A program made the position numbers and the translations under genes. The notes beneath the pieces are model-generated. The model was not told where the DNA came from and ran no database searches. It was given only the letters and a program-made list of their open reading frames with translations. A stretch of DNA of 64,000 nucleotides, taken from contig NC_014165.1 in NCBI RefSeq assembly GCF_000092645.1, positions 3,224,001 through 3,288,000 of the forward strand, read 5' to 3'. The stretch comes from Thermobispora bispora DSM 43833 (GTDB taxonomy: Bacteria > Actinomycetota > Actinomycetes > Streptosporangiales > Streptosporangiaceae). Numbering within the stretch: position 1 is the first letter of the stretch; each line of letters starts with the position of its first letter. Positions 59,597 through 63,983 of this stretch are shown here, in pieces.

Positions 59597-59962
59597 CCGG
59601 GTGGTGGGCCGGGCGGCGGCCCGGACCGGGCGGCCCCGCGCGCAGTCCTGCGTGTGCAGGATCCGGCCGCCGCCGGCCTGCGTCACCGGGGAATCCCGGC
59701 ACGCCTCAGCAGGTCCTGCCGTGCATCCGAGCCGGCCCTGCCGGCACGCTCCACCGGCCTCGCCGCCAGAGGCGACACGCGAGACCTACCGCATGCGTGA
59801 CTGACCCCGGCGCCCCTGAGGCGGCCCGCCGCGCCATCCGAGCCGGCCCTGCCGGCAGGCCGGAACTCGGCCTGGGCACGTGAGTGACCAGAGTGATTTG
59901 ACCGAACCATTGTGATTCGGCAGCATGGTCCGGCCCCTGAGCGCTTCGGAAGGGAGCCGGGC
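59597..59962. repeat. gap with 23-bp direct repeat and a promoter-like dyad
   Basis: 366 bp without a gene. CATCCGAGCCGGCCCTGCCGG (extended by CA) is repeated exactly at 59724-59746 and 59835-59857, 111 bp apart. Nearer the next gene CCGAA-N9-TTCGG (59902-59920) lies in a low-GC stretch and may be an operator/promoter. Confidence 0.65.
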
Positions 59963-61477
59963 GTGCGCAGATCGGTTCGCTCTCTCGGCCTCCTCGCCGC
60001 CCTCCTGCCGGTGCTCTGGACCGGTGCACCGGCGCAGGCGCAGACCACCGCGGTCAAGCAGACCGCCGAATGCCAGGGCGACTGGCTCCCCGCCACGCCC
60101 ACGTCGGCGGAGATCATGAGCGGGAAGCTCTCCCTGCTCGGCCTCCCCGCCGTCCCGGTGGGCAAGGACGTCAACTGGCGGATGGACCCGTACCGGAACC
60201 GGTCCTGGCAGATGGTGTTCCACTCGCTGCGCTGGATGGCGCGGCTGGTCGCCGACTACGAGACCACCGGCGAGACCGCCTACCTCAAGCGGGCCATCGA
60301 GATCGCCAAGGACTGGGTGGCCGACAACCCCTACGGCGGGCGGAACACGTCGAAGTACGCCTGGGACGAGCACCCGATCGCGCTCCGCGCCCCGGCCTTG
60401 GTCTGCCTCAGCCGGCACCACTCCGCCTCGTGGCTGACCAAGACGCTCGCCCGGCACGCCAAGCTGCTCGCCGATCCGCGCAACTACGAGGCAGGGCACA
60501 ACCACGGCCTCGACCAGGACATCGGCCTGCTCCGGATCGGCTGCCGCTACCGCAACACCTCATGGCAGCGGCTCGCCGTCCGCCGCATGGTGCGCTCGAT
60601 GAAGCTCGACATCGACTCCCAGGGCGCCCTGCTTGGTGCCGATCGGGGACGGCGCGGCCGACGTGCAGGCACCCCGGCTCCCCCGCCCGGCCTCGAAGGT
60701 CCAGGTGTACCGGGCCGGTTACGTCTTCGGCCGCACCGAGTGGGACGACCGGGACTCCGCCTTCTACTCGATCTGGTTCGCCCGGGGCGCAAGTTCCACG
60801 GGCACGACGACCACCTGAGCGTCACCTACTACGCCCAGGGCCGGTCCATCCTCACCGAGGCGGGCTTCCACTCCTACGAGAACAGCGCGTACCGGAAGTG
60901 GACGATCAGCCCGGAGGCCCACAACGTGCCGATCGTCGTGGGCAAGCGGTTCCGCCCTAAGGCGCGGACCTCCCTCGTGGGGAAGTCGATCCGCGCCGAC
61001 CGGCAGTCGTTCACCCTCACCGACAAGGCGTACGGGGTCCGCCGGACCCGGTCGGTGCTGGTCAACCACGGTGACGACCTGCTCGCCGTGCTCGACACGG
61101 CGGGCGGCGACCTGCGCAACCTGTGGCACTTCGACCCCGGGCTGAAGGTCGCCTCCTCCTCGGGCGGGAAGGTGGTGGTCACCGACGGCGACTGGCGCGC
61201 CACCCTGGTGCAGCTCGCCATGCCGTCCTGCAAGCCGATCACCGGGCAGCGGGTGGTGATCGGCCAGAGCCGGCCCATCCAGGGCTGGGTCTCCCCCTCC
61301 TACCTGAAGAAGGTCCCCGCGCCGGTGGTGATCTCGCCGGCCGCCCGGTCCCTGCTCACGATCCTCGTGCCGGGAACCGGCGACCCGGAGGTCACCTGCG
61401 CCAAGGGCAAGGTGACGGTGCAGACGCCCGGCGGCGCGGTCACCCTGCGGGTCGGCTCCTCCGGCACCCTGGCCTAG
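59963..61477 (+). pseudogene. secreted heparinase II/III-like polysaccharide lyase, damaged
   Basis: GTG 59963 with GGAAGGGAG; signal peptide about 1-28; helical toroid (SWQMVFHSLRWMARLVADYE, NHGLDQDIGLLRIGCR) and C-terminal beta domain (KFHGHDDHLSVTYYAQG, ILTEAGFHSYEN) as in PL12/PL15/PL21-type lyases. Between about 60635 and 60787 the frame is wrong: the proper text (VPIGDGAADVQ..., YVFGRTEWDDRDSAFYSIWF) is in the +1 frame. It returns at a G4 run (60784-60787) if one G is missing, and before VPIGDGA about 40-80 residues of the helical domain seem deleted. The open frame continues without stops, so a protein of about 504 residues would be made with a scrambled middle. Likely inactive. Confidence 0.78.
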
Positions 61478-61496: not shown

Positions 61497-63077
61497 TCAG
61501 GGTGCGGTGCGCCCGGCGCGGAGCAGGCCGTAGGTGACCGCCTGCTCGAGGGCCTGCCAGGACGCCTCGATGATGTTCTCGTCGACGCCGACCGTGGACC
61601 ACTCGCCGTCGGTGTCGCTCGACGTGATCAGCACGCGGGTCACCGCGCCCGTGCCGTGGCTGCCCTCGAGGATCCGGACCTTGTAGTCGATCAGCTCGAC
61701 CGCGGCGAGCTCGGGGTAGAGCCGCTCGAGCGCGACCCGGACCGCCTTGTCGAGCGCGTTCACCGGGCCGTTGCCCTCGCCGGTCGCGATGATCCGCTCG
61801 CCCTTGGCGTTCAGCTTCACGGTGGCCTCGCTCACCACCTCGCCGTCCGGGCGGCGCTCCACGATCACCCGCCACGACTCGACCGTGAAGTAGCGGGGCC
61901 GCAGCTCACCGACGGTGTCCCGGAGCAGCAGCTCGAACGACGCGTCCGCGGCCTCGAAGGTGTACCCCTGGGCCTCCAGCTCCTTCACACGTTCCACGAG
62001 CGCAGTGGACTGCTCGCGGGTGAGCTCGTAGCCGAGGGCGCGGCCCTTCAGCTCGACCGAGGCCCGGCCGGCCATGTCCGAGACGAGCATCCGCATGTCG
62101 TTGCCGACCAGGGCGGGGTCGATGTGCTGGTAGAGCATCGGGTCCACCTTGATCGCCGACGCGTGCAGGCCGGCCTTGTGCGCGAAGGCGGACACCCCGA
62201 CGTACGGCTGGTGGGAGTTGGGGGTGACGTTGGTGATCTCACTGATCGCGTGGGCGATGTGGGTGAGCTCGCGGAGCGACTCCGGCGGCACGAGGTCGTA
62301 GCCGCGCTTGAGCTGCAGGTTGGCCACGACCGTGAAGAGGTTGGCGTTGCCGGAGCGCTCGCCGTACCCGTTGGCGCAGCCCTGCACGTGGGTGGCCCCG
62401 GCCTTGACCGCGGCGAGGGTGTTCGCCACCGCGCACCCGCTGTCGTCGTGGCAGTGGATGCCGATCCGGGCGCCGGTGGCGGTGACGGCCTCGTGCACCA
62501 CATCGGCGAGCTCGTCGGGGAGCATGCCGCCGTTGGTGTCGCAGAGGGCGACCACGTCGGCGCCCGCCTCGGCCGCGGTGCGGATCACCTCCAGGGCGTA
62601 CGCGGGATTGGACCGGTAGCCGTCGAAGAAGTGCTCGGCGTCGAGGAAGACCCGCCGGCCCTCGGCGCGCAGGTGGGAGACGGTGTCCCGGATCATCTCG
62701 AGGTTCTCCTCGAGCGTGGTGCGGAGGGCGAGCTCCACGTGCCGGTCGTGGCTCTTCGCGACCAGCGTCACCACCGGCGCCTCGGACTCGCGCAGCGCGG
62801 CCACCAGCGGGTCGTCCGCGGCCTTCATCCCCGGCCGGCGGGTCGAGCCGAACGCGGCGAGCTGCGCGTGCTTCAGGTCGAGCTCGGTGCGGGCACGCCG
62901 GAAGAACTCGGTGTCCTTGGGGTTGGCGCCCGGCCAGCCGCCCTCGATGAAGCCGACGCCGAGCCGGTCCAGGTAGCGGGCGATGGCGAGCTTGTCGGCG
63001 ACGGTCAGATTGAGCCCTTCTTGCTGAGCGCCGTCGCGCAGCGTCGTGTCATACACGTGGAACCTGTCGTCAGCCAT
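61497..63077 (-). CDS. cimA: citramalate synthase
   Basis: 526 residues, citramalate synthase rather than isopropylmalate synthase by its length and its motifs: [39 protein letters not shown] and [15 protein letters not shown], with the LeuA-dimer regulatory domain at about 400-526. Condenses pyruvate and acetyl-CoA towards isoleucine. ATG 63077. Preceded by a leader peptide and terminator, so likely attenuated by leucine/isoleucine tRNA charging. Confidence 0.95.
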
Positions 63078-63130
63078 CTTCCCGATCTCCTTAAGGTCTC
63101 GACACGCCGCCGCGCTCTGCCCAAACAAAA

Positions 63131-63156
63131 AGACCCCTCACGGACGTGAGAGGTCT
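63131..63156 (-). terminator. cimA attenuator terminator
   Basis: 11-bp arms (AGACCTCTCAC with GTGAGGGGTCT, one G-U pair) and loop GTCC, followed on the minus strand by TTTTTGTTT. It lies 54 bp before the cimA ATG. No gene other than the leader precedes it on this strand, so it is regulatory. Confidence 0.9.
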
Positions 63157-63191
63157 GCGCGCCGGCGTTGTCCCTTCTTCAGCCGGCGCGC
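63157..63191 (-). promoter_or_regulatory. leader hairpin of the cimA attenuator
   Basis: Perfect 10-bp arms (GCGCGCCGGC at 63191-63182 and complement at 63166-63157), the first inside the last leader codons, the second touching the terminator. Also GGTCTGC in the leader (63211-63205) can pair with GCAGACC (63158-63152), which overlaps the terminator arm: an antiterminator candidate. Confidence 0.75.
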
Positions 63192-63220
63192 CTGCCAATA
63201 ATCAGCAGACCGCAGGACAT
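63179..63220 (-). CDS. cimA leader peptide MSCGLLIIGRRAG
   Basis: 13 residues from ATG 63220 to TGA 63179, with consecutive Leu-Leu-Ile-Ile codons (CTG CTG ATT ATT). The tail IIGRRAG resembles LVLGKRVG of the actinobacterial ilvB leader peptides, which sense branched-chain amino acids. Ribosome site weak (GAGAAACC). ATT, rare in this GC-rich DNA, is used for both Ile. Ribosome stalling here would decide between the hairpins downstream. Confidence 0.8.
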   Translation of the reverse strand: MSCGLLIIGRRAG

Positions 63221-63332
63221 CGGTTTCTCAGTCTGCCACACGGGCTCCGCGCTTGGCACGTCGATCTGCGCGGCCGTACGGACGTGTCCCAGGTCAGCGG
63301 CCCGCTCACCCGCCGCGGCTAGGGTGAATGGC

Positions 63333-63983
63333 ATGAAATCAGCCGCGTTCCTGTCCCCGGCCCTGGCCGAGTACCTGGTCGCGCACGCGACCCCGCCCGA
63401 CGACCTGCTGCGCTCGCTCGCCGAGGAGACCCGGCGGCTGACCGGCGAGCAGGCGAGCCTGCAGATCTCCCCCGAGCAGGGGACGCTGCTCACCATGCTC
63501 GCCGGGCTCAGCGGGGCCAGGCTGGCCGTCGAGGTGGGCACCTTCACCGGGTACTCGTCGATCTGCATCGCCAGAGGGCTGCGCCTCATCGCCTGCGACG
63601 TGAGCGAGGAGTGGACCTCGGTCGCCCGCAGGTACTGGGAGCGGGCGGGCCTCACCGGCACGATCGAGCTCCGCCTGGGCCCGGCCGCCGAGACGCTGCG
63701 CGCCATGCCCGACGAGGAGGTCATCGACTTCGCCTTCATCGACGCGGACAAGGGCGGCTATCCGGTCTACTACGAGGAGCTGCTGCGGCGGCTGCGGCCC
63801 GGCGGCCTGATCGTGGCGGACAACACGCTGCAGGGCGGCCGGATCACCGATCCGGCCGCCGGGGGCACGGTCCCCGCCATGCGGGAGTTCAACGACCTCG
63901 TCATCCGGGATCCCCGCGTGACCAGCGTCCTGCTCCCCTTCGGCGACGGCCTCACCCTCATCCGGAAGAACGGCGGGTCGTAG
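63333..63983 (+). CDS. O-methyltransferase, class I SAM-dependent (caffeoyl-CoA OMT-like)
   Basis: 216 residues. SAM motif VEVGTFTGYSSICIARGL, IACDVSEEW, acidic metal residues in FIDADKGGYPVYYEELLRRL and DNTLQGG. Mg-dependent catechol-type OMT family; the substrate is unknown. ATG 63333 with AGGG upstream. Divergent from cimA; 113 bp separate its start from the leader peptide start. Confidence 0.93.
   Translation: MKSAAFLSPALAEYLVAHATPPDDLLRSLAEETRRLTGEQASLQISPEQGTLLTMLAGLSGARLAVEVGTFTGYSSICIARGLRLIACDVSEEWTSVARRYWERAGLTGTIELRLGPAAETLRAMPDEEVIDFAFIDADKGGYPVYYEELLRRLRPGGLIVADNTLQGGRITDPAAGGTVPAMREFNDLVIRDPRVTSVLLPFGDGLTLIRKNGGS

Follow-up and report, generated by a model that had tools for sequence, protein, structure and literature searches.

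Attenuator candidates with leader peptides are described for ilvB of Corynebacterium, Mycobacterium, and Streptomyces in the available sections of PMC1262725, and the leader peptide IlvL of Streptomyces lividans is given as MRTRILVLGKRVG in those of PMC8079986. The ilvB1 attenuator of Mycobacterium tuberculosis carries LVVI control codons; inhibition of the pathway induces expression, and the exchange of LVVI for AAAA abolishes this induction (PMC13236596, available sections). These three sources, in the same sections, describe terminator and antiterminator of ilvB leaders as mutually exclusive and do not mention an arrangement in which the two abut. Another element, LEU, is described for actinobacterial leuA as a pseudoknot that reaches the Shine-Dalgarno box, with no terminator (PMC1262725, same sections). 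According to Seliverstov and colleagues (2005), some components of attenuators are missing in front of actinobacterial genes. Here we analyze the region upstream of cimA, the gene for citramalate synthase, in Thermobispora bispora DSM 43833. The gene lies in a 64,000-nucleotide (nt) stretch of the genome (NC_014165.1, positions 3,224,001–3,288,000; “the window,” in whose numbering positions are given) and is preceded on the minus strand by a short open reading frame (ORF) for a leader peptide, a hairpin (H1), and an intrinsic terminator (T). Comparison with related loci makes it very likely that these parts constitute an isoleucine-sensing transcription attenuator.

The leader ORF of T. bispora (63179–63220) begins with ATG at 63220, ends with TGA at 63181–63179, and encodes MSCGLLIIGRRAG in 13 codons (ATG TCC TGC GGT CTG CTG ATT ATT GGC AGG CGC GCC GGC). 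Its proposed control codons are the two ATT triplets for Ile-7 and Ile-8 (63197–63202). An extended −10-like promoter element (TGTGGCAGACT, 63230–63240) ends 9 nt 5′ of the leader ATG, and no Shine-Dalgarno motif was found 5′ of the ORF. H1 (63157–63191), the putative abutting antiterminator, consists of 10 base pairs (bp) between 63191–63182 (GCGCGCCGGC) and 63166–63157 (GCCGGCGCGC). Its first arm, which is formed by the final codons of the leader, starts 11 nt after the isoleucine pair. Terminator T (63123–63156) comprises an 11-bp stem (AGACCTCTCAC/GTGAGGGGTCT, 63156 to 63131), the first base of which directly adjoins H1 (gap 0), and a U-tract; TTTTTGTTT occupies 63131–63123. From the end of the T stem (63131), it is 54 positions to the ATG (63077) of cimA (61497–63077, minus strand), which encodes 526 amino acids, is identified by its score of 674.9 bits with TIGR00977 (cut-off 450), and has AAGGAG 5′ of its start. 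Because the upstream neighbor, an O-methyltransferase gene (PF01596; 63333–63980, plus strand), is divergent, T serves no upstream gene on the minus strand. The elements named in the original prediction are all confirmed: the 13-codon frame with CTG CTG ATT ATT, the 10-bp hairpin overlapping the last leader codons, and an 11-bp terminator stem immediately behind it that has no upstream gene to serve.

The same leader is found widely in the order (Streptosporangiales), as the original prediction would lead one to expect. A leader is present in 28 of the 30 best-scoring cimA loci of the order, and the two loci without it (L031 and L040) belong to the same genus (g15). From these 28 leaders, which are not a random draw, a covariance model (R1) was built. 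R1 matches 328 of 345 order genomes and 67 of 70 genera (300 of 317 genomes when the 28 used for building are set aside), and a cimA start lies at most 300 nt away in all 30 best-scoring loci. The T. bispora genome (4,189,976 bp, one contig) is the sole representative of its genus among the 345. In the phylum, R1 matches 24 of 396 genomes, the T. bispora genome included. The 26 matches comprise 15 located 5′ of cimA (again including T. bispora), six upstream of ilvB, three of them more than 400 nt away, one 5′ of a leuA-like gene 28% identical to cimA, and four 5′ of none among the cimA, ilvB, and leuA references.

Because a search with R1 carries the bias of the model, the survey of the class was started from the cimA gene itself. 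With E values up to 1e-100, cimA was detected in 120 of 148 genomes; two fragments (in G818 and G750) were excluded, and 118 upstream regions were usable. A strict rule, which asks for an ORF of 5–25 codons with Ile-Ile and for a terminator 15–150 nt downstream, called 68 of these 118 regions, spread over 21 of 30 families. It called none of 590 dinucleotide shuffles and none of the 118 reverse strands. The control codons and hairpins are thus kept in close relatives and, beyond the order, in the class. For the comparisons below, 227 partly overlapping upstream regions (118 class, 80 named, and 29 order loci) were reduced to those with a strict call, with one copy per distinct sequence. The resulting set of 160 sequences is rich in Streptomyces.

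Ile-Ile is the common core of leaders whose peptides otherwise differ, such as MTYCLIIT, MAQALIIG, MLHRVIIIS (Nocardioides), MKNHRNIIS (Kribbella), MPPQAIIIVRRAG (Thermobifida fusca), and MLSFAMIIGSRRAGPQ (Streptomyces). The two codons 5′ of the isoleucine pair vary (LL, LV, VV, VI, AI, AM, AT, and others). Because Ile-Ile is conserved while the preceding codons vary, the comparison indicates that the sensed amino acid is isoleucine, and not isoleucine together with leucine; from the dual sensing proposed originally, only the isoleucine part stands. Isoleucine is also what the cimA route finally yields: the short leader ORF carries control codons that match the end product of the gene it precedes. 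The choice of codons is equally telling. Rare control codons mark attenuators, for example in the leu leader. Among the 320 codons of the isoleucine pairs in the 160 distinct leaders, 232 are ATT, and 157 leaders contain at least one ATT. Within the coding sequence of cimA, ATT accounts for only 6 of 1516 isoleucine codons (first 500 codons of 94 loci, namely the named and order loci within the 160-sequence set).

The remainder of the leader peptide appears to be under a different kind of constraint. Five Streptomyces leaders shift frame after the control codons and continue with SAPVRS.. in place of the RRAG tail (L123, L141, L158, and L174 with Ile-Ile, L160 with Ile-Met), but retain the control codons and H1. 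Leaders of many families stop directly 5′ of H1. Because of these two observations, the conserved RRAG tail looks to be constrained as RNA rather than as peptide. At the other end, 133 of 159 leaders have a −10-like motif that ends 6–10 nt 5′ of the start codon, compared with 14 of 795 among shuffles and 3 of 158 among blocks farther upstream, and a Shine-Dalgarno-like motif occurs in five of 160 leaders. The leader transcript is thus probably leaderless or near-leaderless, as far as can be told from sequence.

In an alignment of the 28 order leaders, H1 and T together comprise 19 pairs, four of which show changes on both sides, and H1 also covaries across the 160 sequences. H1 has at least 8 bp in 159 of the 160 and begins 9–14 nt past the first base of the isoleucine pair; the position of the leader stop codon ranges from +6 to +36. 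The gap between H1 and T is 0 in 146 sequences, 1 in 13, and 2 in a single case. The two hairpins share no base in 155 sequences and 1 nt in the other five, and mutual extension of H1 and T is impossible in 155. A helix of at least 8 bp within 2 nt of T is found in 159 of 160 real sequences versus 143 of 800 shuffles. A small background sample of 37 other terminators from the named loci contains 11 with an upstream helix of at least 8 bp, three of these with a gap of 0. The lowest five pairs of H1 mostly read GCGCG in the 160 sequences (for example 63191–63187 in the window), which exceeds what pairing would need.

We propose that a near-leaderless RNA would be made and immediately translated. 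When isoleucine is plentiful, the ribosome would clear the rare ATT codons, arrive at the stop codon, and usually cover the first arm of H1; T could then form, and transcription would end 5′ of cimA. When isoleucine is scarce, the ribosome would wait at Ile-7 or Ile-8 with a front edge that does not quite reach H1, which would allow H1 to form. H1, once formed, would hinder the lower T stem from closing at the exit of RNA polymerase, and transcription would read through into cimA. Since none of the bases of T are used by H1, the effect of H1 would have to come from contact. As H1 ends exactly at the start of T, it may block the lower T stem: a duplex ending at this point could not enter the exit channel of the polymerase and would hold the lower stem open. 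The polarity from stalling via H1 to read-through is suggested by the formation of H1, which tracks the position of the ribosome, by the codon-dependent induction of ilvB1, and by the similar abutment in ilvB leaders. Conservation of the parts, their spacing, the codon bias, and the lack of an overlapping antiterminator are visible in the sequences. The leader is presumably translated, with stalling when isoleucine is short, and read-through upon starvation would be expected by analogy with M. tuberculosis ilvB1. Taken as a whole, the reading that we favor is that cimA probably possesses an isoleucine-specific, ribosome-controlled attenuator, widespread in the class and built like the ilvB leaders, in which H1 would block T by abutment. 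Antitermination by abutment, considered on its own, is a more tentative step, for which we see slightly more room for doubt than for confidence.

Several observations weigh against this reading. The R1 matches were counted genome-wide, and weak ones may belong to ilvB; the 160 sequences are related by descent, even though they come from 21 families. Fifty of the 118 class cimA genes received no strict call, including all 12 of family f90 and all 12 of family f95. A relaxed look at the misses revealed Ile-Ile leaders in all five members of f89, the terminators of which the strict rule had overlooked, Ile-rich candidates in single members of f10, f100, and f99, and Met-Ile-Met in two members of f5. 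In both f90 and f95, cimA lacks this leader. All 12 cimA genes of f95 sit immediately 3′ of an open frame. For the 12 of f90, the 450 nt examined yielded no Ile-Ile call and no T-run, so that their control probably differs.

Further objections come from folding and from the assumed dimensions of the ribosome. When a 161-nt fragment is folded alone (z = −2.86 against shuffles), T is kept, but the minimum-energy fold lacks H1, the arms of which are paired elsewhere, the second one with GC-rich sequence past T; the fold suggested as a check in the original prediction thus bore out the terminator and not the hairpin. Because H1 is lacking in the whole-fragment fold, the case for it rests on the order of transcription and on the comparison of the 28 and 160 sequences. 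In thermodynamic terms, H1 and T can coexist, and the median probability of T is 0.97 with the ribosome at either the isoleucine pair or the stop codon, so equilibrium folding alone cannot explain regulation. With the ribosome stalled, H1 forms completely; with the ribosome at the stop codon, its probability is 0.00, the latter by construction, as covered bases were removed. The front edge of the ribosome was taken to lie at +9 from the A site; were it at +12, a ribosome at Ile-8 would run into the lowest part of H1 in most of the sequences. In four of the 160 sequences the stop codon is at +36, as in the frame-shifted Streptomyces leaders, and a ribosome halted there would leave roughly half of the H1 arm uncovered behind it. 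Finally, substitutions of the control codons of Streptomyces coelicolor ilvB were reportedly without effect (cited in PMC1262725, available sections).

The strongest competitor, in our view unlikely, is a tandem terminator, in which H1 stacks with T and aids termination. With isoleucine replete, the ribosome would finish the leader and depart, H1 and T would both form, and transcription would stop; a ribosome stalled at Ile-8 would invade the base of H1, weaken the tandem, and thereby cause read-through. The gap of 0 fits coaxial stacking as well as it fits abutment, the upper bound of 14 nt between the isoleucine pair and H1 is not demanded by a pure model in which stalling leaves H1 free, and adjacent hairpins are handled as termination signals in the available part of PMC8355165, which also counts against the antiterminator role that we favor for H1. 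Yet T appears strong by itself (11 bp and a U-tract), so partial loss of H1 need not yield read-through. The distance is 14 nt in 56 of the 160 sequences, where a ribosome at the second isoleucine codon should hardly touch H1. The tandem would also require the ribosome at the stop codon to depart before the polymerase passes T.

It is quite improbable that H1 is recognized by a factor that controls T in trans, be it a protein or something else, and that the small ORF is incidental. Such a factor could account for the GCGCG at the base of H1, kept in most sequences beyond the requirement of pairing, and a binding protein has been proposed for the LEU element of leuA (PMC1262725, available sections). 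It would leave unexplained the Ile-Ile pair, the ATT bias, the fixed spacing between isoleucine codons and H1, and the leaderless-looking starts. Moreover, scans with Rfam returned no relevant match in window positions 62900–63450 (E up to 5) or in nine loci (gathering scores) and place the leader neither with T-boxes nor with known riboswitches.

Still less credible is a textbook attenuator, in which a long antiterminator shares the 5′ arm of T and forms upon stalling of the ribosome, although this is the usual arrangement. We calculated how strongly upstream RNA sequesters the 5′ arm of T as long as the 3′ arm has yet to be transcribed, for a ribosome at either the isoleucine pair or the stop codon. 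This test recovered the Escherichia coli trp (0.62 stalled versus 0.03 at the stop) and thr (0.64 versus 0.09) attenuators. In the stalled state, sequestration of the 5′ arm by upstream RNA exceeded 0.5 in none of the 160 cimA sequences (median 0.01), on which ground a classical shared-arm antiterminator is rejected. At the stop codon, the value for cimA was 0.27, the reverse of the classical pattern. The nearly complete lack of bases common to H1 and T (at most 1 nt, in five sequences) points in the same direction. Two weak matches were rejected as substitutes, as both are lost in some relatives when inspected by eye. A kissing loop between GGAC in the H1 loop and GTCC in the T loop is possible in most of the 28 relatives, but it is not general because it is lost in L034, L035, and Streptomyces. 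Pairing of GGTCTGC (codons 4–6) with GCAGACC (junction of H1 and T) exists only with that codon choice and would sit under the stalled ribosome. The term attenuator in the original prediction is hence appropriate for an attenuator-like terminator, but not in the textbook sense. A chance ORF 5′ of an ordinary terminator can be dismissed, even if GC-rich shuffles often place an 8-bp helix close to T (gap up to 2 in 143 of 800), given the absence of strict calls among 590 shuffles, their presence in 21 of 30 families, and the lack of a minus-strand gene for T to serve.

Elsewhere in the window, a heparinase II/III gene with Pfam N and C parts (59912–61477, plus strand) reads sensibly between ∼60650 and ∼60810 only in the +1 frame (VYRAGYVFGRTEWDDRDSAFYSIWFA). 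Going by the reading frames, two changes that offset each other, either frame shifts or sequence errors, lie in the middle of this gene.

A description of a cimA leader was not found in the literature searched, mostly at listing level, in line with the original prediction, which knew of none. The table of eight S. lividans attenuators has no cimA entry (PMC8079986, available sections), and neither cimA nor citramalate is mentioned in the available main text of PMC2965389. Within this literature, the cimA leader is thus an undescribed, attenuator-like element with an architecture related to that of ilvB leaders, which upholds the kinship proposed originally. The citramalate route to isoleucine would thereby gain a candidate control element across many actinobacteria, including antibiotic producers.

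Like the actinobacterial ilvB leaders, the cimA leader is short and often apparently leaderless and has a run of branched-chain codons, a hairpin over or shortly past the leader end, and an intrinsic terminator. Mechanical calls were obtained for nine of 30 ilvB upstream regions, all nine with a gap of 0–1 between H1 and T and with 7–14 nt between codons and H1. Of the remaining 21, 18 were viewed by eye, and 13 of these show H1 next to T. The ilvB leaders of family f6, of the LVVI or LVVL type, show abutting H1 and T in three of four genomes; the fourth (G394) gave no leader. Beside these, the ilvB gene of T. bispora itself (L003; G000:C1:3297817-3302505, minus strand, outside the window) has the leader MQMRGILVVLRRRAA and a hairpin next to a terminator; by eye, the arms of the two seem to overlap by ∼3 nt, and the minimum-energy fold differs. 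The cimA leader shares with ilvB leaders the codon run before a hairpin that abuts T and the putative near-leaderless start. It differs from them in being located 5′ of cimA and in its control codons, Ile-Ile, which match the end product of cimA.

From the LEU element of leuA, the cimA leader differs by its clear terminator, and on that ground it is not assigned to this type. A frame, MLRGLLLLSRRGEGR, that resembles described leaders of the LEU element lies 5′ of the T. bispora leuA (L001; G000:C1 near 1326490, outside the window). In a deeper lineage (L088), a leuA-like synthase gene follows the leader MSQNLLLT with its stop codon and then the same abutting hairpin and terminator. A weaker R1 match (L097, the second in G406) lies 5′ of a gene other than cimA, ilvB, or leuA; its frame, MRTGLLLTEPR, is followed by a hairpin and terminator and resembles the S. 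lividans leuS leader MRAVRLLLSEPR (PMC8079986, available sections).

As in E. coli trp and thr, the control codons of the cimA leader are near a hairpin arm that would be covered by a ribosome at the stop codon, and a terminator follows downstream. The control-codon ORF and the intrinsic terminator are thus common to both, whereas the trp and thr antiterminators take the 5′ arm of the terminator and that of cimA does not. Because the shared arm is lacking, the cimA leader would work like a trp-type attenuator and is not classed as one. With some reserve, and a shade more speculatively than for abutment at cimA itself, one may envisage an actinobacterial class of attenuators (cimA, ilvB, and the leuA-like gene of the deeper lineage), in which a non-overlapping hairpin at zero spacing would block T at the polymerase exit and a ribosome stalled before the hairpin would switch the gene on. 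An antiterminator that abuts instead of overlapping is offered as an answer to the missing attenuator components of actinobacteria, and rare ATT codons together with the fixed spacing provide a simple signature with which more members might be found. Since it is located before cimA, we class the leader as a cimA branch of the ilvB-type architecture rather than as an ilvB leader.
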